Below are positions 1 through 39,684 of a stretch of 64,000 bases of DNA, piece after piece. The notes below the pieces were generated by a model that saw only the letters and a list, made by a program, of their open reading frames with translations, had not been told where the DNA came from and made no database searches. The stretch lies in contig NZ_JOMJ01000003.1 of NCBI RefSeq assembly GCF_000711295.1, forward strand, positions 1,933,501 to 1,997,500, written 5' to 3'. The stretch's first letter is position 1. Each line of letters opens with the position of its first letter. The DNA comes from Desulfohalovibrio reitneri. Lineage in GTDB: Bacteria; Desulfobacterota; Desulfovibrionia; Desulfovibrionales; Desulfovibrionaceae. The position numbers and the translations under genes are program-made.

Positions 1-483
1 GGTTCCGCCCGAGACGTGGGCCACCCGCACCCGGTCCACGGCGTCGGCCACGCCGCCGCCCCGGCGGACCACCTGGCGCAGGCTGTCCGAAGGGATCAGC
101 CCGGTGCCGGGTTCGCCAGGCTCGCCCAGCATGACCCGCTGCAGGATGTCGCGGGTGGTCTCCGAGGTGTCGCCCGCGGCCCAGGCGCGGATGGGCCTGT
201 GGAACCGCCGCCCCTCCCACCAGTCCGGGTAGAGGCCGGTCAGGTGCAGGGCCAGCTCGTAGCCGCCCACGCCCTCGGTCTTGCCCACCCGGTTGGCCGC
301 CAGCATGAGCCGCTGGCGGTGGTCCGCGCCCAACCGGAAGAACTCCATGTGGCGGGGGTAGCCGGAGCGGGCCAGGGGGCCTTCGTCCGGGTAGTAGCCG
401 AACAGCCTGCGCCCCCGCGCCCTCCGGGCCTGCTCCTCCAGCAGCCGGGCCTTCTCCGCCAGCAGGTCGCGTTTAGCGGTCAA
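1..483 (-). CDS. Phage terminase large subunit, N-terminal part (runs off the window)
   Basis: This is the ATPase/nuclease motor that packages DNA into phage or GTA capsids. The visible 161 residues show a charged N-terminal helix (1-26), a FGYYP/GYPRHMEFF segment, and the Walker-A-like motif AANRVGKTEG at about 62-71, typical of TerL proteins. The rest lies outside the window. No ATG is available; the best start is TTG at 483, overlapping the end of the small-subunit gene by 11 bp, as is usual for translationally coupled terS-terL pairs. The order terS then terL on the same strand supports the call. The start codon is less certain than the identity. Confidence 0.8.
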   Translation of the reverse strand, partial: MTAKRDLLAEKARLLEEQARRARGRRLFGYYPDEGPLARSGYPRHMEFFRLGADHRQRLMLAANRVGKTEGVGGYELALHLTGLYPDWWEGRRFHRPIRAWAAGDTSETTRDILQRVMLGEPGEPGTGLIPSDSLRQVVRRGGGVADAVDRVRVAHVSGGT

Positions 484-925
484 GCTCCACCTCCAACGCC
501 TTGACCCGGGCCGCAAGCTCCGCGTCGCTTAGCCCGGCCAGCTCGTCAGCCGGGGCGGAACGCTTGGACAGCCACTCCTTGGCCGCGCCCGGGTCGGGCG
601 GCACCCGTTTGCGCACCACCCGTTCCTCCTTCACCTCCAGGGCGGTGGTGCCGTCCTCCCGCGTCACCGGCACGCGCTTGCGTGTCACCTCGGCCACGGA
701 GAACCCCACCGCGCGGCGGTACAGCGCCCGCTCCACCCGGCCGTCGAAGGTCCGCTTGCCATCGGTCACGGCCCGGGCGAACTCCGGCTTCTCCCGCCGC
801 CACTGCTGCACCGTGGACTTGGCCACGCCCAGCAGCTCGGCCAGCTTGGCGTCGGAAAACCCCTCACGGCAGGCCACCCGGGCCATGCGGCAGAAATCCC
901 GGCGGTACTTGCTTTTGGCGGGCAT
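473..925 (-). CDS. Phage terminase small subunit-like DNA-binding protein
   Basis: The 150-aa protein begins at ATG 925 behind a GGAGGAG ribosome site; a longer reading frame upstream lacks such a site. Residues about 22-45 (FSDAKLAELLGVAKSTVQQW) form a helix-turn-helix of the kind by which TerS recognises the packaging site. The segment RALYRRAVGFSVAEVTRKRV is typical of phage small terminases. The C-terminus is acidic and helical. The start overlaps the stop of the upstream gene (ATGA) and the end overlaps terL. TerS is inferred from the fold and the position next to terL; a phage regulator with the same HTH is the alternative. Confidence 0.75.
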   Translation of the reverse strand: MPAKSKYRRDFCRMARVACREGFSDAKLAELLGVAKSTVQQWRREKPEFARAVTDGKRTFDGRVERALYRRAVGFSVAEVTRKRVPVTREDGTTALEVKEERVVRKRVPPDPGAAKEWLSKRSAPADELAGLSDAELAARVKALEVELDR

Positions 926-1209
926 CAGCTCCTCCCCCACAGGCGGAAAAGCCACTGCCCGGCCAGCACGCCCAGGGAGGCCAGCACGGACGAGGCGGCG
1001 GCCAGGCGGGACTGGCCCCGCTCCACCGCCTCCAGCCGCTTCTGGGCCTCGGCGATATCGGCGTTCAGACTGTCCAGCCGCTTGGCCCGCTCGGCGCACC
1101 GCTCGGCCAGCCTGGCCTCAATGCGGCCCACGGCCACCAGCAGCTCGCCCTGGCCATGGCGCAGGGCGTCCACCGCCTCCCACAGATTGTGGATGTCGCG
1201 CTCGCTCAT
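925..1209 (-). CDS. Small phage protein: coiled coil plus C-terminal membrane helix
   Basis: I do not recognise a named family for this 94-aa protein. Residues about 10-68 are heptad-rich and charged (EARLAERCAERAKRLDSL), predicting a coiled coil. Residues about 70-88 (ASSVLASLGVLAGQWLF) form one membrane segment followed by a short basic tail. It overlaps its neighbours on both sides by 4 bp (ATGA). Small coiled-coil membrane proteins between holin and terminase genes often act with the holin in lysis timing; that role here is inference from position. Confidence 0.6.
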   Translation of the reverse strand: MSERDIHNLWEAVDALRHGQGELLVAVGRIEARLAERCAERAKRLDSLNADIAEAQKRLEAVERGQSRLAAASSVLASLGVLAGQWLFRLWGRS

Positions 1210-1748
1210 CCGGACACCTCCGCGTACTTGGCGGCCAGCCGCCGCGAGGTGGCGTTGTCCGGCATGCCGCCCAGGCCGGGGCGGCCCAGGCGCAGCTTCA
1301 CCGCGCCTTTGTCAAAGGCGGAGCGGCCCAGGAAATAGTAGCCGTAGACCCACAGGCTCATCTCGGTGAGGGCCGCGAACTTGGCTTCCTCGGCCACGCC
1401 CCAGAATGTCCCGGCCACCACCGCGAAAGTGAGGCACAGCAGGCACAACGGCCGCACGTTGCGCGACAGCGCCGTGCCGTGGCGCATGTCCGCCTGGTGG
1501 CGCCTGGTCAGCTCCTTTTGCAGCCCCATCTCCACCCCGGCCCAGACCTTCTCGAACTCCAGGGCGAACTCCTGGCGCGTTCGCACCAGCTCCACCGCCT
1601 CCTCCGGGCTGGCCGCTCCGGTCACGCGCATGGCCACCCCGGCGGCTTTCTCCGCCACCCGCTGCGCCTCGCTGCCCTCCCCCGCCAACCACTTGGCGAT
1701 GGTCGGAGCCACCGAGGCCAATCCGGCTATGATGCTCACGGGATCCAT
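1206..1748 (-). CDS. 3TM-type phage/GTA holin
   Basis: The 180-aa protein starts at ATG 1748 (GGAGTGGGA upstream); the longer reading frame lacks support. The N-terminus MDPVSIIAGLASVAPTIAKW with the following AEKAAGVA..TG..SPEEAV motif matches the holin family first described in gene transfer agents (GTA_holin_3TM type). An amphipathic helix rich in Arg/Glu spans about 50-95. Membrane segments lie at about 100-118 and 126-143. It would permeabilise the inner membrane at lysis. It is the first gene of the visible phage cluster; no integrase, repressor or lysogeny gene lies between it and the chromosomal feo genes. Confidence 0.7.
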   Translation of the reverse strand: MDPVSIIAGLASVAPTIAKWLAGEGSEAQRVAEKAAGVAMRVTGAASPEEAVELVRTRQEFALEFEKVWAGVEMGLQKELTRRHQADMRHGTALSRNVRPLCLLCLTFAVVAGTFWGVAEEAKFAALTEMSLWVYGYYFLGRSAFDKGAVKLRLGRPGLGGMPDNATSRRLAAKYAEVSG

Positions 1749-2533: not shown

Positions 2534-4732
2534 TTACCCGAGGGTTTGGTAGAGGGCTACGGAGACGGCGAAGGCGAAGAGGGTGTTGAATACCACGGAG
2601 AAGGCGGCCCAGCCCCAGCCCCCGGTTTCCTGGCGGATGGTGACGACGCTGACGAAGCATGGCGCGTAGAGCATGATGAAGGCCATGACGGACACGCCTT
2701 TGGCCAGTGTCCAGGAGGGATCGCGTTTGATGCGGCTGGTGAGCTGGGCTGCTTCCTCGGGGTTGGTTTCGCCCAGGGAGTAGGCGGTGCCCAGGGTGGA
2801 GACGATGACTTCCTTGGCGGCGAATCCGCCGATGAGGGCGATGTTCAGCCGCCAGTCGAAGCCAGCGGCCCGGGTGACGTTTTCCAGAGAGGTGCCCAGC
2901 TTGCCCGCCACGGAGTGCCGCAGCCGCAGGCCTCCGAGTTCGCTGGAGGTGTCGGCCAACCGCTTCCGCAGTGTTTCCGCGCGTTCCGGGTCGGTTGCCT
3001 GGGCGAGTTCGGCCTGGGTCTGTTCCATGCGCTGTTCGAGCGGGGCGGTCTGGTCCTCGGGCGCGCCGGGGTAGGTCATGGCGGCCCAGAGGATGATGGA
3101 CAGGGCCAGGATGACCGTGGCCGCCTTCTTGATGTACTGCCAAGTGCGCTCCCAGGTGTGGATGAGCATGCCGCGCAGGGTGGGCAGGCGGTAGGGGGGC
3201 AGTTCCATGACGAAGGGGGTGGAGGGCCCCCGGATGAGGGTCAGCCGCAGGACCTTGGCCACCACCAGGGCGAAGAGCCAGGCGCCGATGGTCACGGCGA
3301 ACATGGCCTGCGCCTGCCGGGTGGGGAAGAATACGGCCGTGAGCAGGATGAAGACGGGCAGCTTGGCCCCGCAGGTCATGAAGGGCGCGGTGAGGATGGT
3401 GGCCAGTTTTTCCTTTGGGGAGCGCAGGGTGCGGGCGGCCATGATGCCGGGCACGGCGCAGCCCCCGGCGATGCCGCCGGAGACGATGAAGGGCATGACC
3501 GAGCAGCCGTGCAGGCCGAATACGCGGAATACGCGGTCCAGCATGTAGGCGATGCGGGCCATGTAGCCGGAGTCCTCCAGGAAGGCGATGATGAAGAAGA
3601 TGATGGCGATGAGCGGCACGAAGGAGAGCACGCCGCCCACGCCGTCGATGACGCCGGAGACCAGCAGGGAGCGCAGGGGGCCTTCCGGCAGCAGGGACTG
3701 CGCCGTGCCGCCCAGCCAGGCGAAGATGTCGCCCATCCAGGTGACGGGTATGTCGCCCACGGAGAAGGTGATCTGGTAGATGAGGTAGAGTACGGCGACC
3801 ATGACGGCCGGGCCGAGCAGCTTGTGGGTCAGGAAGGTGTCCACCTGGTCGGACAGCGCCACCCGGTCCATGCGGCGGACCTTGACCACGCCCTGCTTGA
3901 GGATGGAGGAGATGAAGCCGTAGCGGTAGTCGGCGATGAGGGCTTCGGGGTAGGTGCCCAGGGTCTTCTGGCAGTGGTCGGCCACCGAGGCCACGAGCGC
4001 CTCCAGCTCGCTGGAGGTCGCGGCGTCCTTGGCCCGGCCCATTTCCAGGACTTCCTCGTCGCTTTCCAGGTACTTCAGGGCGATTCAGCGGGGGGAGTAG
4101 TTGCCTCCGGCGAAGTCCCGCTCCTCGATAAGGGTGGTCATTTCCGAGAGCACGGGGTCGAGGTCCGGGCCGTAGGAGATCTCCAGGGGCTGCCGCCTGC
4201 TGCCACGCTCGACCGCCACGCGCGCGGTTTCCTCGGCCAGCTCGGCCACGCCCGCGCCGGTGCGGGCCACCGTGGGGACCACGGGGCAGCCGAGGAGTTC
4301 GGCCAGCCGGTCGGCGTCGATTTCCATGCCGTGCCGCCGCGCCTCGTCCATCATGTTCAGGGAGAGGACCACGGGCACGCCGATCTCCAGCAGCTGCACC
4401 GTGAGGTAAAGGTTGCGCTCCAGAACCGCGGCGTTGACCACGTTGACGGCCGCCCGGGGGTCGTCCTCGATGAGTACGTGGCGGGCGACCAGTTCCTCCT
4501 GGGAGTAGGCGGTCAGGGAGTAAGTGCCGGGCAGGTCCAACACGTGCAGTTCGCCGTGGCTGGTGGCCACAAAGCCCTCTTTCTTGTCAACGGTGATTCC
4601 GGGGTAGTTGCCCACGTGCTGGCGCGCCCCGGTGAGGGCGTTGAAGAGGGTGGTCTTGCCCGCGTTGGGGTTGCCCGCCAGGGCCACGGTCATGCGCGGG
4701 CCTTGGGCATGCCCGGTGGCGGCCTGGACCAT
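2534..4732 (-). pseudogene. feoB: Ferrous iron transport protein B, interrupted by in-frame TGA
   Basis: FeoB is the GTPase-coupled inner-membrane Fe2+ permease. Codons 1-215 encode the G domain (Walker A GNPNAGKTT at about 20-28, DLPGTYSL, LNMMDE). A TGA at 4087-4085 (codon 216) then stops the frame. The same frame continues without shift through IALKYLESDEEV to the full membrane domain; an internal ATG at 4042 opens a 502-codon ORF. In the intact paralogue at 9633-11774 the residue at this position is Trp (RWIALKYLE), so the simplest explanation is TGG to TGA. Total length with the stop read through is 732 codons, normal for FeoB. It lies 1 bp after feoA. Function could survive as two polypeptides or by readthrough. 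A sequencing error is possible. Confidence 0.85.
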
Positions 4733-4733
4733 G

Positions 4734-4997
4734 TCAGGCTTCCTCGGGCTGTTCGCCGGGTGCCACGGGTTCCACGGTGATGTGGTCGGCCTCGTTGTTG
4801 CGCAGGGTGAGGGTGAAGTTCTTCAGGCGCAGGGCCACGGGATCCTTGAGGGGAGCGCGGCCCACCACCAGGATTTCCGAGCCGGGCACGAGCCCCATGT
4901 CGCGGATGCGGCGGCCCATCTCGCCTGAGGCCTTGATGGAGCGCACGATGGCGCGGTCGCCCTTGGCGAGCTGGCGCAGTCCCTTGGTCTCGGCCAT
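4734..4997 (-). CDS. feoA: FeoA-domain protein
   Basis: This 87-aa SH3-like FeoA protein works in the cytoplasm with FeoB in ferrous iron uptake. The family signature is clear: GEMGRRIRDMGLVPGSEILVVGRAPLKDP followed by LRNNEADHI near the C-terminus. It is closely similar to the FeoA encoded at 9382-9636. It overlaps the upstream Cys-rich membrane protein gene (ATGA) and ends 1 bp before feoB, so the genes are translationally coupled. Confidence 0.92.
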   Translation of the reverse strand: MAETKGLRQLAKGDRAIVRSIKASGEMGRRIRDMGLVPGSEILVVGRAPLKDPVALRLKNFTLTLRNNEADHITVEPVAPGEQPEEA

Positions 4998-5239
4998 CAG
5001 GCGTCACCGCCTTTGCGGTCCGCGCGGATTTCCCCTTCCGGTTTGTCCGCGATGCCCATGCCGCCGGGCGACGGGCTGCGTGAACCGGGGCGGGGTTCGG
5101 AGCATCCGGAGGCCTCGGGGCAGCCGGAGCAGGAGTCGTCGCAGCCGCACCCCTGTCCCTTGGCCTGGCCGCGCAGGCGGCGGGCGAAGTACAGGGCCGC
5201 CAGGACGACCAGGATGATGACGATGATGGTTTGCCACAT
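4997..5239 (-). CDS. FeoB-associated Cys-rich membrane protein
   Basis: The 80-aa protein has one N-terminal membrane helix (TIIVIILVVLAALYFARRL, about 4-22). A cytoplasmic tail follows with the Cys cluster CGCDDSCSGCPEASGC. This architecture matches the small FeoB-associated Cys-rich proteins that occur in feo operons of anaerobes and may hand over iron or sense redox state. It overlaps feoA by 4 bp. The C-terminal third (Pro/Ser/Gly then acidic-basic) is low complexity. Family assignment is good; the biochemical role is not established. Confidence 0.8.
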   Translation of the reverse strand: MWQTIIVIILVVLAALYFARRLRGQAKGQGCGCDDSCSGCPEASGCSEPRPGSRSPSPGGMGIADKPEGEIRADRKGGDA

Positions 5240-5319: not shown

Positions 5320-5547
5320 TCAATCCACAGGGGAGGCCAGCACCTTCTCGGCCAAGCCGTGCCCCAGCACCAGGTCGCTGCCGCGCACGCGCAACCGGCA
5401 AGGGCCACCGGTGCAGCCGGAAATCTCCACCAGGGTTCCGGGGGTCAGCCCCAGGGCGCACAGCCGGCACCTGGCGCCGCACCCACTGGCGGCGTACTCC
5501 TCCACACGGACCCTGGCTCCGCTTCGAAAACTGGTCAAAGGCTGCAT
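5320..5547 (-). CDS. Short FeoA-like protein with Cys cluster
   Basis: The 75-aa protein starts at ATG 5547 behind GGAGGAA; a longer upstream extension has no support. Fold cues are FeoA/SH3-like: the LGLTPGTLVEI turn and the C-terminal LRVRGSDLVLGHGLAEKV. Unlike the other FeoA proteins here it carries five Cys (SGCGARCRLC and GCTGGPC), suggesting metal or Fe-S binding. It is the first gene after the Fur-like box at 5604-5622. A hairpin separates it from the rest of the operon. FeoA family membership is fairly sure; the role of the cysteines is inference. Confidence 0.8.
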   Translation of the reverse strand: MQPLTSFRSGARVRVEEYAASGCGARCRLCALGLTPGTLVEISGCTGGPCRLRVRGSDLVLGHGLAEKVLASPVD

Positions 5548-5603
5548 GGTCTTTCTTCCTCCCCTTGAAGTGTCTTGACCACCGTTCACGCCTTCCATGG
5601 TAT

Positions 5604-5622
5604 GCAATTGAGAATCATTGTC
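5604..5622 (-). promoter_or_regulatory. Putative Fur box upstream of the leftward feo operon
   Basis: The 19-bp site GCAATTGAGAATCATTGTC matches the classical Fur consensus GATAATGATAATCATTATC at 14 of 19 positions. It lies about 57 bp upstream of the small feoA-like gene. The next gene upstream is itself a Fur-family regulator. Confidence 0.7.
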
Positions 5623-5667: not shown

Positions 5668-6132
5668 TTATTCCCGTGATTCGTCGTCCTCGGCCCGGCA
5701 GGCGGGGCAGAGGCCGTAGAGGTACATGCTGTGGCCGGTGAGGAGGAAGCCGTGTTCCCTGGCCAGTTCCTCCTGCAGCCGCTCGATGCGCTCGTCCGCC
5801 ACCTCCACGGTGCGGCGGCACCGTTCACAGATGAGGTGGTCGTGGTGCTCCTGGTCGGCGGCGCGCTCGTAGCGCACCGCACCGTCGGAGAAATCCACCT
5901 CCCGCGCAAGCCCGGAGTCGGCCAGCAGCTTGAGGGTGCGGTAGACCGTGGCCTGGCCCAGGGAGGGGTCCTCCTGGCGGGCCAGGTTGTGCAGCTCTTC
6001 GCTGGTCAGGTGTCCCCGGCGCCGCAGAAAGACGTCCAGGATACGCATGCGCTGGGGCGTGACCTTGAGGCCGTTGCGGCCCAGGTATTCCTTGAAGGAC
6101 TCTTCCTGTTCGCGGATCGTTTCCTCGCGCAT
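5668..6132 (-). CDS. Fur-family metal-responsive repressor
   Basis: The 154-aa protein has the Fur layout: a winged-helix DNA-binding domain at about 15-90 (VTPQRMRILDVFL, SLGQATVYRTLKLL) and a C-terminal metal-binding dimerisation domain. Ligand-type residues are visible in QEHHDHLICERC and in the second Cys pair LCPAC, which would form a structural Zn site. It lies directly upstream of the feo operon on the same strand, with a Fur-like box between. An iron-sensing Fur is most likely, but PerR or Zur cannot be excluded from sequence alone. Confidence 0.88.
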   Translation of the reverse strand: MREETIREQEESFKEYLGRNGLKVTPQRMRILDVFLRRRGHLTSEELHNLARQEDPSLGQATVYRTLKLLADSGLAREVDFSDGAVRYERAADQEHHDHLICERCRRTVEVADERIERLQEELAREHGFLLTGHSMYLYGLCPACRAEDDESRE

Positions 6133-6285: not shown

Positions 6286-7566
6286 ATGGCCCAGGCTGCA
6301 TGCCCGGAAAACGGGCGGGGACAGGCCGTCCTGTTCGTCGAGGACGACGCCATAACCCGCGAGGACGTGGCGCGGACCATCAGTTCCGTGGCTTCCGTGG
6401 TCCATGTGGCCGGGGATGGCCGGGAGGGGCTGGAGGCCTACCTGCGGCTTAGGCCGGAGATCGTGGTCACGGACCTGCGCATGCCCGGCATGGACGGTCT
6501 GGATCTGTGCCGCCGCATCCGCCGGGAGGACCCCCACGCCTATATCATCGTCGCCTCGGCCTACGGCGACATGGACAATCTTTTCGAATCCATCAATATC
6601 GGCGTGGACAGCTTCGTCCGCAAGCCCATCGAGACGGAACAGCTCACCACCGCCCTGCGCCGGGCCATGGACGACCCAAGGCGCGGCCCCGGGGCGGACC
6701 ACAGGCTGCTGGACCACAGCCCGGATTTCCTGCTGACCACCGACGGGGAGCGGGTCCACTATCTCAACCGCAGCCTGCGGCGCTTTCTTGGCCTCGACGC
6801 CGGGAGCGGGACGGACGCGGGCGGACTGGTCAACCGCCTGTTGCGGGGCAAGCCGCCGGGCGGCGGGCGGCCGCCGGAAAACTGGCTGCGCGAGCTGACC
6901 AGCCTGGGCGAGCGTGAACTGGTCCTGACCATGGACGACCCGATGGAATCCGGCGACAATCGCGCCGTGCTCGTCCGCAACCGGTGCCTGCCCACCGGCA
7001 ACGGCCACGCCCCGCTGTTCAGCGTCTCCTTCACCGACGTCACCCACATTCAGCGCGAACGGGACTTCTACCTGGACTTGGCGCTCAAGGATCCCCTCAC
7101 CGGCACCGCCAACCGCGCCCGCTTTTTCGACGAGCTGCGGCGCGAGTGCTGGCGGGCGGACCGCTATTGTCACCCCCTTTCCCTGCTCATGTTCGACCTG
7201 GACGACTTCAAGCGGGTCAACGACGAATTCGGGCACCGCGCGGGTGATCACGTGCTGGCCGAGGTGGCCGGCCTGGTCTCCGCCCGCATCCGCAAGGTGG
7301 ACATTTTCGCCCGCTACGGCGGGGAGGAGTTCTTCATCATCGCGCCTGACACTCCATTGCCCGGGGGCACGGAGCTGGCCGAAAAGCTGCGCCGGGCCAT
7401 CGCGGGCCACGATTTCGGACGCGGGGTGGGCGTCACCTGCTCCTTCGGCGTGGTCTCGCGACTGGTCAGCGAGCCCACCCAGTACCTGCTGGAGCGGGCG
7501 GACAGCGCCCTGTACCGGGCCAAGCTGGCGGGCAAGAACCGCACCCACACCGCCGCGCCGCGCTGA
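6286..7566 (+). CDS. REC-PAS-GGDEF response regulator (diguanylate cyclase)
   Basis: The 426-aa protein has an N-terminal receiver domain (about 13-130; acidic pair ED at 19-21, phospho-acceptor Asp63 in VVTDLRMPG, Lys in RKPIE), a PAS-like middle (about 145-255) and a C-terminal GGDEF domain (about 270-420). The active-site motif is GGEEF near 345-349, a functional variant. The RKVD motif five residues before it is the c-di-GMP inhibitory I-site. It should make c-di-GMP from two GTP under control of an unlinked kinase. A GGAGG site precedes the ATG. It stands alone between minus-strand genes. Confidence 0.93.
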   Translation: MAQAACPENGRGQAVLFVEDDAITREDVARTISSVASVVHVAGDGREGLEAYLRLRPEIVVTDLRMPGMDGLDLCRRIRREDPHAYIIVASAYGDMDNLFESINIGVDSFVRKPIETEQLTTALRRAMDDPRRGPGADHRLLDHSPDFLLTTDGERVHYLNRSLRRFLGLDAGSGTDAGGLVNRLLRGKPPGGGRPPENWLRELTSLGERELVLTMDDPMESGDNRAVLVRNRCLPTGNGHAPLFSVSFTDVTHIQRERDFYLDLALKDPLTGTANRARFFDELRRECWRADRYCHPLSLLMFDLDDFKRVNDEFGHRAGDHVLAEVAGLVSARIRKVDIFARYGGEEFFIIAPDTPLPGGTELAEKLRRAIAGHDFGRGVGVTCSFGVVSRLVSEPTQYLLERADSALYRAKLAGKNRTHTAAPR

Positions 7567-7572
7567 TCCCGG

Positions 7573-8508
7573 CTACGTCACCGAGGCCAGCAGCAGCCCG
7601 CCCAGGACGGCCACGGCCAGCGCCCCGCCCAGGGTGAGGGCGGCGTGCAGGCGGGCGAAGGCCTTTTCGCGGCGGCGCGCCAGGCGCAGCAGCGCACCGC
7701 GCGAACCGATGGCCAGCAGGGCGAAGGCCGAGGTGGTCAGCCCCATGCCCAGGGAGACCGAGGCCATGGCCAGCAGGCCGGTGCGGACGAGCTGGTGGGA
7801 GACGGCGAAGAGCAGGATGAGGGCCGCGCCGGGACAGGGCACCAGCCCGGCCGCCGCCGCGGTGAGCACCAGCCCGCCCCGGCCGGAGCGCGGCGGGTGG
7901 TCGTGGTGGTGGAGGGGCCCGCCGCGCCGGTACTCCAGCAGCCCGCGCAGAAAGAGTCCCAGCCCCACCGCCAGGATGAGGCCGTAGCTGATCTTCTCCA
8001 GGAACAGCCCGCCTTCCTCAACCGCCTGCCCCCCGGCCAGCCCAAGCAGTTCCGCCCCGCCCAGCACCAGCACCGAGGCGGAGACGACGTGGGTAAGCAT
8101 GGTCAGGTTGCCGAAGGCGATGCCCGAGGCCACTCCGCCCGGCCGCCCCAGGAAGTAGGTGGCTGTGATGGTCTTGCCGTGTCCAGGCCCCACGGCGTGC
8201 ACCACCCCGTAGAGGAAGGCCAGCCCCATGAAGGCCCAGAAGGCTCCGCCCCAGGGGTTTTCCCGGATGCTGCCCGCGGCCCGCACCATCGACAGCCGCA
8301 GCTCCCGCTGCATGGCGCTGGTGGTCCGCAGCAGGCCGGAGAGGATGGACGGGGAGGAGGACTCCTCCCCGCGGACCCCGGCCGGGGCGGACTCCCCGCT
8401 CTCCTGGGAACTGCTGAGGAAGGGGTTGCGGACGGCGGAGGCCTGCGCGGCCAGGACCAGGCAGGCCAGGACCAGCAGCAGCGCGACCGGAAGGCGCCAC
8501 CGGGTCAT
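7573..8508 (-). CDS. NicO/RcnA-type nickel-cobalt transporter family membrane protein
   Basis: The 311-aa polytopic membrane protein has an N-terminal signal-like helix (1-24), a soluble Ser/Glu-rich stretch to about 85, and then about six membrane segments. Diagnostic NicO motifs are HAVGPGHGKT in the first core helix and GLVPCPGA in a later helix. A His-rich loop (LHHHDHPP) lies between them and could bind metal. It overlaps the upstream DUF1007 gene by 4 bp. The DUF1007-NicO pair is a recurring two-gene unit. Fur-like boxes lie upstream, so iron or a related metal is a plausible substrate, but direction of transport and metal are inference. Confidence 0.85.
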   Translation of the reverse strand: MTRWRLPVALLLVLACLVLAAQASAVRNPFLSSSQESGESAPAGVRGEESSSPSILSGLLRTTSAMQRELRLSMVRAAGSIRENPWGGAFWAFMGLAFLYGVVHAVGPGHGKTITATYFLGRPGGVASGIAFGNLTMLTHVVSASVLVLGGAELLGLAGGQAVEEGGLFLEKISYGLILAVGLGLFLRGLLEYRRGGPLHHHDHPPRSGRGGLVLTAAAAGLVPCPGAALILLFAVSHQLVRTGLLAMASVSLGMGLTTSAFALLAIGSRGALLRLARRREKAFARLHAALTLGGALAVAVLGGLLLASVT

Positions 8509-9236
8509 TTTTTCTTGAAACGGACGACGTAGCCGTCCGGGGTGATCTGGTCGTGGAAGTAGGCCAGGGAGGGCAGCATGTCCACCCAGGCCTCCATGTC
8601 GAACTGTTCCGAGGGACCCTTGAGAGGTACTTCGCCCTGGAAGGAGTCTACGTCCACGTTGGCCTTGAACCGCTGGTAGTCGTCGGGGCTCGGCCCGGCG
8701 CCGGTGCCGAATTGCGGGTCCTTGGTGGGGTCCGTCCCGCCCCCGCCCTGGGGTGAGACCAGGGTGACGAAGGTGTAGAAGGAGGCGTCAAAGACCGCCA
8801 CCTTGACTTCCTTTTCCGTGTCCGCCGCGGCCACGTGGCAGGGCACGAAGAACTCGTAGACCATTTTGTTGCCGTCCATGCCGGCGGTGAAGTCCGTGGC
8901 CCATTCCGCCTTGAATGGCTTCCCGTCGATGAGGACGTGGGTGAAATAGCTGTTGTTGGCGATGTGGGAGAAGCTCTTCTCCTCCACCGAGGCGGCCTCG
9001 GCCTCGCTCAACTCGAAATCGTTGTTCGTGTCCACCATCTGCATGACCTGCACCGAGAGCATCTCGTCCAGGGTCCAGTGCTGGCGGAAGCCAGCCAGGC
9101 CGTTCTCGTCGAAGACCACGGTGAGCACGCATTCCACGAAGGCGTGGGGGTGGGCGCGGGCCGGGGAGGGGGCGGCCGCCAGGGCGGCCAGGGCCAGCGG
9201 CAGCACCAGCCCGAGGGGAAGGATGAAGCGTCGCAT
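8505..9236 (-). CDS. DUF1007 family periplasmic protein
   Basis: The 243-aa protein starts at ATG 9236. A clear signal peptide (MRRFILPLGLVLPLALAALA to ARA, about 1-28) exposes an N-terminal HPHAF motif, typical of DUF1007 and suited to metal binding. Residues about 69-80 (DTNNDFELSEAE) resemble an EF-hand loop. The remainder is beta-rich. It is coupled to the NicO gene by a 4-bp overlap and diverges from feoA-feoB across an intergenic region with two Fur-like boxes. It probably delivers a metal to the NicO partner; this is inference from co-occurrence. Confidence 0.85.
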   Translation of the reverse strand: MRRFILPLGLVLPLALAALAAAPSPARAHPHAFVECVLTVVFDENGLAGFRQHWTLDEMLSVQVMQMVDTNNDFELSEAEAASVEEKSFSHIANNSYFTHVLIDGKPFKAEWATDFTAGMDGNKMVYEFFVPCHVAAADTEKEVKVAVFDASFYTFVTLVSPQGGGGTDPTKDPQFGTGAGPSPDDYQRFKANVDVDSFQGEVPLKGPSEQFDMEAWVDMLPSLAYFHDQITPDGYVVRFKKK

Positions 9237-9282
9237 GGCCGCAGGATGGTCACGGAATAAAAAAAAGCAAGCCTTTCTTGTT

Positions 9283-9301
9283 GACAATGACAATCGTTCT
9301 C
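9283..9301. promoter_or_regulatory. Putative Fur box 1 in the feoA2/DUF1007 divergent region
   Basis: GACAATGACAATCGTTCTC matches the Fur consensus at about 15 of 19 positions. It is placed 47 bp upstream of the DUF1007 start and about 80 bp upstream of feoA, where it could govern both directions. Confidence 0.7.
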
Positions 9302-9381: not shown

Positions 9382-9636
9382 ATGTCCCAGCCCCTGCCAC
9401 TGCGATACCTGCAGCAGAACCAGAAGGCCAAGGTGGTGCGCGTCACCGCTTCCGGAGAGATGGGCCGCCGCATCCGCGACATGGGCCTCAACCCCGGCGC
9501 GGAGCTGACCGTGACTGGCCGCGCCCCCCTGTACGACCCCGTGGCCCTGAAGCTGGCGGGCTTCACCCTGACCCTGCGCAACAACGAGGCGGACCACATC
9601 GAGGTGGAGCCGCTGCGGGACGGAGACCGCGTATGA
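9382..9636 (+). CDS. feoA: FeoA-domain protein (second system)
   Basis: The 84-aa protein starts at ATG 9382 behind GAGGAG; the in-frame upstream ATG at 9325 lies within the Fur box region and is unlikely. The motifs GEMGRRIRDMGLNPGAELTVTGRAPLYDP and LRNNEADHI define FeoA. It resembles the FeoA at 4734-4997 closely, implying duplication of the feo unit. Its stop overlaps the feoB start (ATGA). It supports FeoB-driven Fe2+ import. Confidence 0.93.
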   Translation: MSQPLPLRYLQQNQKAKVVRVTASGEMGRRIRDMGLNPGAELTVTGRAPLYDPVALKLAGFTLTLRNNEADHIEVEPLRDGDRV

Positions 9637-11774
9637 GCACCCTCAATCTGGCCCTGGCGGGCAATCCCAACTCCGGCAAGACCACTCTTTTCAACGCCGT
9701 CACCGGCGCCCGGCAGCGGGTGGGCAACTATCCGGGCGTGACCGTGGAGCGCAAGGAAGGCACCGTTCGCGTGGGCGCGGACAGCGTGCACCTTGTGGAC
9801 CTGCCCGGCTGCTACTCCCTGACCGCCTACACCCCGGAAGAGCTGGTGGCCAGGCAGGTGCTCATCGACGAGCGGCCCCAGGCCGTGGTGCAGGTGGCCG
9901 ACGCCACCGCCCTGGAGCGCAGCCTCTACCTGACGGTGCAGTTTCTGGAGCTGGGCTTCCCCGTGGTCCTGGCCCTGAACATGATGGACGAGGTCAAGCG
10001 CAGGGGCATGCGCATCGACGCGGCCAAATTGGCCGAGCTGTTCAACATGCCCGTGGTGGAGACCGTGGCCCGCGAGGGCCGGGGCAAGGAGGAACTGCTG
10101 GAGGAGGCGGCCAAGGCCGCCGCCCGCTCCGGTGAACTGCGCTCCTTCCGCCTCTCCTATGGCCCGGACATCGACCCCGCCCTGGAGGACATGACCGCCA
10201 TGCTGGACGGGACCGGGGTGGACATGGGCGCGCCCAACCGTTGGATCGCCCTGAAGTACCTGGAGGGCGACGAGGAGGTGGTGCGCAAGGGCCGCGCCGC
10301 CGCTCCCGAGCTTTCCAGGCGGCTCGAGGAGCGCGTGGACGAGGTTCGCCGCCATCTGCTGGCCACCCTGGAAACCTACCCCGAGGCGGTCATCGCCGAC
10401 TACCGCTACGGCTTCATTTCCTCGGTGCTCAAGCAGGGCGTGCTGCGGCGCAACGAGCGCAAGCAGCGCATCGAGATCACCGAGATGCTGGACAAGGTCC
10501 TCACCCACCGCCTCCTGGGGCCGGCCATTATGCTGGGTGTACTCTACGGCCTGTTCGAACTGACCTTCACCGTGGGCGAGATTCCCATGGGCTGGCTGGG
10601 GGCCTTCTTCGGCTGGCTGTCCGGCTCGGTGGAGGCCGCCATGCCCGCCGGGCCCCTGCGCTCGCTGTTGGTCTCGGGCATCATCGACGGCGTGGGCGGC
10701 GTGCTGGGCTTCGTGCCCCTCATCGCGGTCATGTTCCTGGCCATCACCTTTCTGGAGGACGCCGGCTACATGGCCCGCATGGCCTATATGCTGGACCGCG
10801 TCTTCCGCATCTTCGGCCTGCACGGCTGCTCGGTGATGCCCTTCCTGGTCTCCGGCGGACTGCCCGGCGGCTGCGCCGTGCCCGGCGTCATGGCCGCCCG
10901 AACCCTGCGCAGCCCGCGCGAGAAGCTGGCCACCCTGCTCACCGCCCCCTTCATGACCTGCGGGGCCAAAGTGCCGGTGTTCATCCTGCTGGCCGCGGCC
11001 TTCTTCCCCGGCCAGGCGGCCCAGGTCATGTTCTTCGTCACCCTGGGCGCCTGGGCCATGGCCCTGCTGGTCTCCAAGCTGCTGCGCTCCACGCTTTTGC
11101 GCGGCGAGTCCACACCCTTCGTCATGGAGCTGCCGCCCTACCGCATGCCCACCCTGCGCGGCCTGCTCATCCACACCTGGGACCGCGCCTGGGCCTACAT
11201 CCGCAAGGCGGGCACCGTCATTCTGGCCGTGTCCATTCTCATCTGGGCGGCCATGACCTACCCCGGCCTGCCCGAGGACCAGGCCGCCGCCTTCGAACAG
11301 CAGCGCGTCCAGGCGGAACAGGCGGTTCAGGGCGAGGCCCTGGCCGAGCGGCTGGCCGCCATCGACCAGCGGGAGGCGGCCGCCACCCTGAAGAACTCCG
11401 CTGCCGGACGCATCGGCGCGGCCCTGGAGCCGGTCACGCTGGCCGCGGGCTTCGACTGGCGCACCAACATCGCCCTGGTCGGCGGCTTCGCGGCCAAGGA
11501 GGTCATCGTCTCCACCATGGGCACGGCCTACTCGCTGGGCGAGGTGGATCCCGAGGAGACCGGCGGGCTGGTCAGCCGCATCCAGGCGGACCCCACCTGG
11601 TCCAAGGCCACGGCCATCGCCCTCATCGCCTTCGTGCTGCTCTACGCGCCCTGCTTCGTGACCGTGGTCACCATGGCCCGGGAGTCCTCCTGGCGCTGGG
11701 CGGCCCTGTCCATGTCCATGAACACGGCCATCGCCTTCCTGCTGGCGGTGGCCATCTACCAGATAGGCGCCTAG
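9633..11774 (+). CDS. feoB: Ferrous iron transport protein B (intact copy)
   Basis: The 713-aa protein imports Fe2+ at the inner membrane. The G domain occupies about 1-165 (Walker A GNPNSGKTT at 10-18, DLPGCYSL, LNMMDE). A helical linker with RWIALKYLEGDEEV follows near 195-210. The membrane domain has the Gate motifs VSGIIDGVGGVLGFVP and MPFLVSGGLPGGCAVPG and the conserved C-terminal FDWRTNIALVGGFAAKE. It is intact and of normal length, unlike the paralogue at 2534-4732. Overlap with feoA shows translational coupling. Upstream Fur-like boxes suggest iron repression. Confidence 0.95.
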   Translation: MSTLNLALAGNPNSGKTTLFNAVTGARQRVGNYPGVTVERKEGTVRVGADSVHLVDLPGCYSLTAYTPEELVARQVLIDERPQAVVQVADATALERSLYLTVQFLELGFPVVLALNMMDEVKRRGMRIDAAKLAELFNMPVVETVAREGRGKEELLEEAAKAAARSGELRSFRLSYGPDIDPALEDMTAMLDGTGVDMGAPNRWIALKYLEGDEEVVRKGRAAAPELSRRLEERVDEVRRHLLATLETYPEAVIADYRYGFISSVLKQGVLRRNERKQRIEITEMLDKVLTHRLLGPAIMLGVLYGLFELTFTVGEIPMGWLGAFFGWLSGSVEAAMPAGPLRSLLVSGIIDGVGGVLGFVPLIAVMFLAITFLEDAGYMARMAYMLDRVFRIFGLHGCSVMPFLVSGGLPGGCAVPGVMAARTLRSPREKLATLLTAPFMTCGAKVPVFILLAAAFFPGQAAQVMFFVTLGAWAMALLVSKLLRSTLLRGESTPFVMELPPYRMPTLRGLLIHTWDRAWAYIRKAGTVILAVSILIWAAMTYPGLPEDQAAAFEQQRVQAEQAVQGEALAERLAAIDQREAAATLKNSAAGRIGAALEPVTLAAGFDWRTNIALVGGFAAKEVIVSTMGTAYSLGEVDPEETGGLVSRIQADPTWSKATAIALIAFVLLYAPCFVTVVTMARESSWRWAALSMSMNTAIAFLLAVAIYQIGA

Positions 11775-38912: not shown

Positions 38913-39684
38913 AGCGCGGACCATATGCAAAGGTCGCCGAGCGCAACGCCGACCTCCTGGCCCGCATTCGCGGCATCAAGGCCGACCATCCGTTCTGGGG
39001 ATACCGTCGGGTCTGGGCGTTCCTGCGCTTCGTGGACGGCGTTGTCGTCGGCCAAAACCGCGTCTACCGGCTCATGAGCGAGCATGACCTCACGGTGAAG
39101 CCAACCTGCGACTCAAGGCCAAACGCAAGCCGACCGGCGTCAAGCCCCGGCCCTCGCGACCCAACGAGTGGTGGGGTATCGACATGACCAAAATCAAGAT
39201 TGACGGCTACGGCTGGCTGTACGTGGTCATTGTGCTTGACTGGCGCACCAAGAAGGTCGTCGGCCACTACGCCGGCGATCAAGCCAAGGCATGGCATTGG
39301 CTCTCGGCGCTCAACGCGGCTGTCGGCAGGCAGTTCCCCGAAGGCGTGCGCGGCGGCGGTCTTCATCTCATGGCCGACAACGGCTGCCAACCGACCTCGA
39401 CGAGCTTTATGAAGGCTTGCCGCGTCATGGACATCAAACTCGCCTTCACCAGCTACAACAACCCCAAAGGCAACGCCGACACAGAGCGCTTCATGCGCAC
39501 CATGAAGGAAGAGCTGGTCTGGATCAATGAATGGCGTAGCCCGACGGCCTTTTACCAAGCCTTGGGCTCCTGGATCGAAGAATACAACCAAGGCTACCTG
39601 CACTCGGCGCTGGGGTATAAAACCCCGGTGACAACCGAGCAGGAACTGATCAACTCGCGGACTCTCTTACAAAAGGCTTGCTAA
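38909..39684 (+). pseudogene. IS3-family transposase OrfB, frameshifted
   Basis: The first part (38909 to about 39100) reads through HPFWGYRRVWAFL, VGQNRVYRLMSEHDLTVKP and then leaves frame. Restoring one base near 39102 (a C in a C-run) gives VKPNLRLKAKRK and joins the downstream frame with PNEWWGIDMTKIKIDGYGWLY. The catalytic triad is intact: Asp at 39181-39183, Asp of MADNG at 39376-39378, and Glu of DTERF at 39484-39486 (D-35-E spacing). The single-base deletion should inactivate the transposase unless it is a sequencing error. Confidence 0.9.

Follow-up and report, generated by a model that had tools for sequence, protein, structure and literature searches.

A single in-frame TGA at a conserved tryptophan codon in one of two feoB genes of Desulfohalovibrio reitneri, probably a recent nonsense mutation

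The ferrous iron transporter FeoB is recognised by the Pfam domains FeoB_N, FeoB_Cyto, Gate and FeoB_C. In the crystallised cytosolic part of the protein from S. thermophilus (NFeoB) the G domain comprises residues 1-170 and the helical domain residues 171-270 (PMC3153494), and the role of the covalent link between GTPase and permease is an open mechanistic question. The literature was searched for split or nonsense-bearing feoB genes, but nothing directly applicable was found; a Helicobacter paper that speaks of a 'split' deals with feoA and feoB as separate genes. In-frame TGA codons are known from bacterial selenoprotein genes such as those of formate dehydrogenase, from UGA-to-Trp readthrough or recoding (leaky UGA, a suppressor or 4-bp-stem tRNA-Trp, or genetic code 4) and from single-nonsense pseudogenes or segregating null alleles. 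UGA is the leakiest stop codon and mostly Trp is inserted at it in E. coli, of which strain K-12 has an inefficient RF2 (PMC11126739). However, readthrough reaches very different levels: about 12% was measured in E. coli, whereas two Pseudomonas species showed 0.08% and 0.04% (PMC9481147).

The gene studied here, feoB1, occupies positions 2534-4732 on the minus strand of the 64-kb stretch of DNA that was analysed (the window). Its translation from 4732 to 2534 (732 codons) contains a sole internal stop, the TGA at 4087-4085 (codon 216), in agreement with a sequence-only reading of this DNA, which had described the frame as open except at this codon. The TGA is preceded by the residues GGNYSPR and followed by IALKYLE, and the intact paralogue feoB2 has RWIALKYLE at the matching site. 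In 110 aligned homologues, drawn from two collections so that some genes are counted twice, the codon is TGG (Trp) in 82, encodes Phe in 22 and Tyr in 6, and neither Cys nor a stop is found in any of them. The nearest relatives (G091 and G115, approximately 66-68% identical) have TGG as well. The same reading had taken the TGA for an altered Trp codon, and the homologues and the paralogue bear this out; one G-to-A transition is sufficient for the change. The stop falls within a conserved domain, where all of these homologues have a sense codon, as expected of a pseudogene created by a nonsense mutation.

When the TGA is read as Trp, feoB1 encodes 732 residues in a single frame with FeoB_N (15-168), FeoB_Cyto (187-282), Gate and FeoB_C in this order, and differs from an ordinary FeoB by this one codon. 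As sequenced, the same domains are distributed between two minus-strand ORFs. The N-terminal ORF (4085-4732, 215 amino acids) contains the complete G domain (residues 15-168), in which the G1, G3 and G4 motifs are intact, and the first third of the helical domain. The downstream ORF (2534-4042, 502 amino acids) starts at an internal ATG preceded by a GAGG and contains the remaining helical domain and the whole membrane part. The TGA had been placed by the sequence-only reading exactly in the linker between the G domain and the permease. This is incorrect, since residue 216 falls about one third of the way into the cytosolic helical domain (PF17910, FeoB_Cyto, 187-282) according to both Pfam and the alignment to crystallised NFeoB proteins, in which it corresponds to residue 203 of chain 2wia. 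The codon is situated 48 residues past the last residue of the G-domain profile and well ahead of the membrane part.

The remainder of feoB1 is intact. Of the positions conserved in at least 95% of the relatives, 214 out of 215 are kept, the sole departure being a Gly to Ala change at 538; in the same test feoB2 departs at 3 of 200 positions and the median relative at one. This single departure leaves room for no more than roughly 1% nonsynonymous change per site by neutral drift in feoB1, a bound to be taken as an order of magnitude only. The codon score and GC3 are about equal on either side of the TGA. An old pseudogene was ruled out by the 214 retained positions. Because the conserved residues are kept and the codon statistics are even, the lesion would be very recent, or not real, or parts of the gene would still be in use.

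The second of these possibilities, namely that the true gene carries TGG and the TGA arose in base calling or assembly or from a minority variant, is the main rival to a nonsense mutation, and we regard it as unlikely but in need of serious consideration. It would agree with the intactness of all else in feoB1, with the single substitution required, and with the surroundings of the changed base, which belongs to a would-be GATC site and has six consecutive C nearby. When both strands of the 64 kb were scanned for coding potential, eight in-frame stops flanked on either side by coding signal turned up, and the feoB1 TGA is the only intragenic one and the sole such lesion seen in the window, which also suits an artefact. 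Each of the remaining seven simply marks where one tandem gene gives way to the next, so that a generally decayed or error-rich region was rejected. Against an artefact, the consensus seems good, since no further intragenic stop was found among the 57 genes of the window, nor any internal stop in 179 domains surveyed genome-wide (77 ABC and 102 response-regulator domains).

The stop appears equally isolated among related genomes. The genus is represented by one genome. A survey of 150 genomes from the order listed at least 150 FeoB genes, three of which were flagged with a stop. In two of these (G104 with TAA and G146 with TAG) the aligned body contains no stop and the flagged codons lie at the ends of the matches, and only feoB1 has a stop in the body among the matches listed. 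No FeoB split at the site of the feoB1 TGA was present among the at least 150 listed genes. A recoding or split common to the lineage was therefore rejected.

A reassignment of UGA to Trp was discarded because TGA is an ordinary stop here, terminating 24 of the 57 window genes (a count that includes the N-terminal feoB1 ORF), and because no TGA occurs in frame in the 179 domains. A single tRNA-Trp gene was seen in the typed set of tRNAs, to which some hits with a long variable arm do not belong. It has a CCA anticodon, G24, A9, a C27-G43 pair and an intact 5-bp anticodon stem. It is thus without the UCA anticodon, the A24 of the Hirsh suppressor, a changed A9 or an unpaired 27-43, and a UGA suppressor tRNA-Trp was excluded; the changes discussed for UGA-reading tRNA-Trp (PMC13092985) are absent from it. 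The RF2 of the genome carries Ser just before the SGPGGQ motif. At this position the RF2 of E. coli K-12 carries Thr.

Leaky readthrough, in which the normal tRNA-Trp would misread the UGA, restore the Trp and yield a little full-length FeoB1, seems distinctly improbable. It could draw on the known leakiness of UGA and on the base that follows the feoB1 TGA, an A, a context in which UGA is reportedly leaky in E. coli and readily misread by tRNA-Trp (Engelberg-Kulka 1981, as cited in PMC5289835). It is opposed by the low levels seen in some bacteria, by the tRNA-Trp without suppressor features, by an RF2 that is not of the K-12 Thr type and by the absence of a structured recoding signal after the TGA. 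Traces of full-length FeoB1 are possible, but efficient readthrough is not predicted, since the tRNA-Trp shows no suppressor features. The locus therefore shares with known cases of UGA-to-Trp recoding a UGA at a Trp site followed by A, and differs from them in its normal tRNA-Trp, in the use of TGA as a stop throughout and in being an isolated case.

Insertion of selenocysteine was considered as well, as the genome encodes a tRNA-Sec and the genes of two formate dehydrogenases (L165 and L166) contain an in-frame TGA (Sec) followed by nearly identical hairpins. These two genes served as a positive control. The 55 nucleotides after their TGA fold with -22.8 kcal/mol, compared with -11.8 kcal/mol in feoB1, where no hairpin follows the TGA and the RNA is less folded than its own shuffles (z +2.5). 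Moreover, the homologues have Trp, Phe or Tyr at the site and never Cys. In the absence of both a SECIS hairpin and Cys homologues, selenocysteine at feoB1 was rejected, and we consider its probability negligible. The gene resembles bacterial selenoprotein genes only in that its frame contains a TGA and the genome encodes a tRNA-Sec.

The intact paralogue lies approximately 4.6 kb away on the opposite strand, where feoA (9382-9636, plus strand; PF04023, E 4.8e-19; start chosen by coding score) is paired with feoB2 (9633-11774, plus strand), which encodes 713 amino acids without a stop and with all FeoB domains. A tree of 101 sequences groups feoB1 with L039 and feoB2 with L054, and both pairings are well supported and belong to different clades, which excludes a recent duplication and indicates that the two genes are old paralogues.

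On balance, we consider it probable that feoB1, in origin an ordinary feoB, has very recently become a pseudogene or is present as a segregating null allele, tolerated by virtue of feoB2. One G-to-A transition would have changed the conserved TGG into TGA, and translation would end within the cytosolic helical domain, with residue 215 as the last one incorporated. The product would consist of a soluble G domain and a truncated helical domain, and since it would lack the permease, this copy is expected to import little or no Fe2+. Its loss would probably be tolerated, as the nearby feoA-feoB2 pair makes a complete transporter. The sequence itself shows the codon, its descent from Trp, the intactness of the remaining gene and of the paralogue, and the ordinary meaning of TGA in this genome; we infer that the function of feoB1 is lost, that feoB2 compensates for it and that the base is real. 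Among the three fates proposed by the sequence-only reading (a dead gene, two chains or readthrough), a dead or nearly dead feoB1 is favoured, because the genome shows neither a suppressor tRNA-Trp nor the weak RF2 of K-12, the TGA lacks a recoding signal, and the Met of the internal ATG is not conserved in the paralogue; two chains and readthrough are both less likely. The good condition of both halves would nevertheless fit a gene that is still used equally well. With single-nonsense pseudogenes and segregating null alleles feoB1 shares the one transition, the intact remainder and the nearby intact paralogue, but no second lesion is present, so that it would be either very young or a sequencing error. 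Most likely, this is ordinary gene decay beside an intact backup copy. As a nonsense mutation it would be routine; for annotation, two functional Feo systems should not be counted here, and the feoB1 TGA should not be labelled as selenocysteine.

The permease part of feoB1 may still be made from the internal ATG with its SD-like GAGG. This ATG, at 4042-4040, is the 15th codon past the TGA, the distance given in the earlier reading. Restart of translation at this codon is plausible, since the duplex energy of the GAGG equals that of the true start (-5.9 kcal/mol) and the RNA at the site is weakly folded (z +2.5). The gene would then yield two chains, a 215-amino-acid G-domain protein and a permease restarted at 4042, which might associate as a split FeoB. 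Shorter FeoB G-domain constructs (165-188 amino acids) have been solved as structures, so that the N-terminal chain could fold, and both halves are conserved. However, the cut falls within the helical domain rather than between domains, the restart Met is absent from feoB2 (VVRKG there), the GAGG is a by-product of ordinary Asp-Glu-Glu codons, and the survey of the order (at least 150 listed genes) showed no FeoB split at the same place. Taken together, two chains are improbable. A more elaborate version, in which FeoB1 would be a naturally split transporter, with a G chain ended by the UGA, a permease from ATG 4042, a trace of readthrough by tRNA-Trp and a separately set stoichiometry of GTPase and permease, is to be viewed with strong doubt. 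Should the two chains be produced and functional, they would amount to a natural experiment on whether FeoB needs its GTPase covalently joined to the permease.

The feoB1 gene follows a set of genes in the same orientation. Directly upstream of it lies a second feoA (4734-4997, minus strand; PF04023, E 1.7e-19), preceded by a gene for a FeoB-associated Cys-rich membrane protein (4997-5239, minus strand; PF12669, E 2.2e-9), the first feoA (5320-5607, minus strand; PF04023, E 5e-12) and a gene for a Fur-family regulator (5668-6132, minus strand; PF01475, E 4.6e-37). The gene order fur-feoA-feoA-feoB is retained in the nearest relatives. Divergent from fur, on the plus strand (6286-7566), lies a gene for a response regulator with a GGDEF domain, and a similar gene adjoins the feo operon in several of the nearest relatives (L039, L173 and L174). 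The interval between the two feo systems contains genes for a NicO-type metal transporter and a DUF1007 protein (7573-9293, minus strand), the whole forming a metal-transport cluster. Next to the operon on its other side, a phage remnant or prophage edge (473-1739, minus strand) carries terminase small subunit-like (phrog_309, E 3.6e-26) and holin-like (phrog_3427, E 1e-6) genes. Elsewhere in the window, an integrase-core (rve) fragment of 166 amino acids (39184-39684, plus strand), located in a stretch of low coding score, is probably a transposase remnant.
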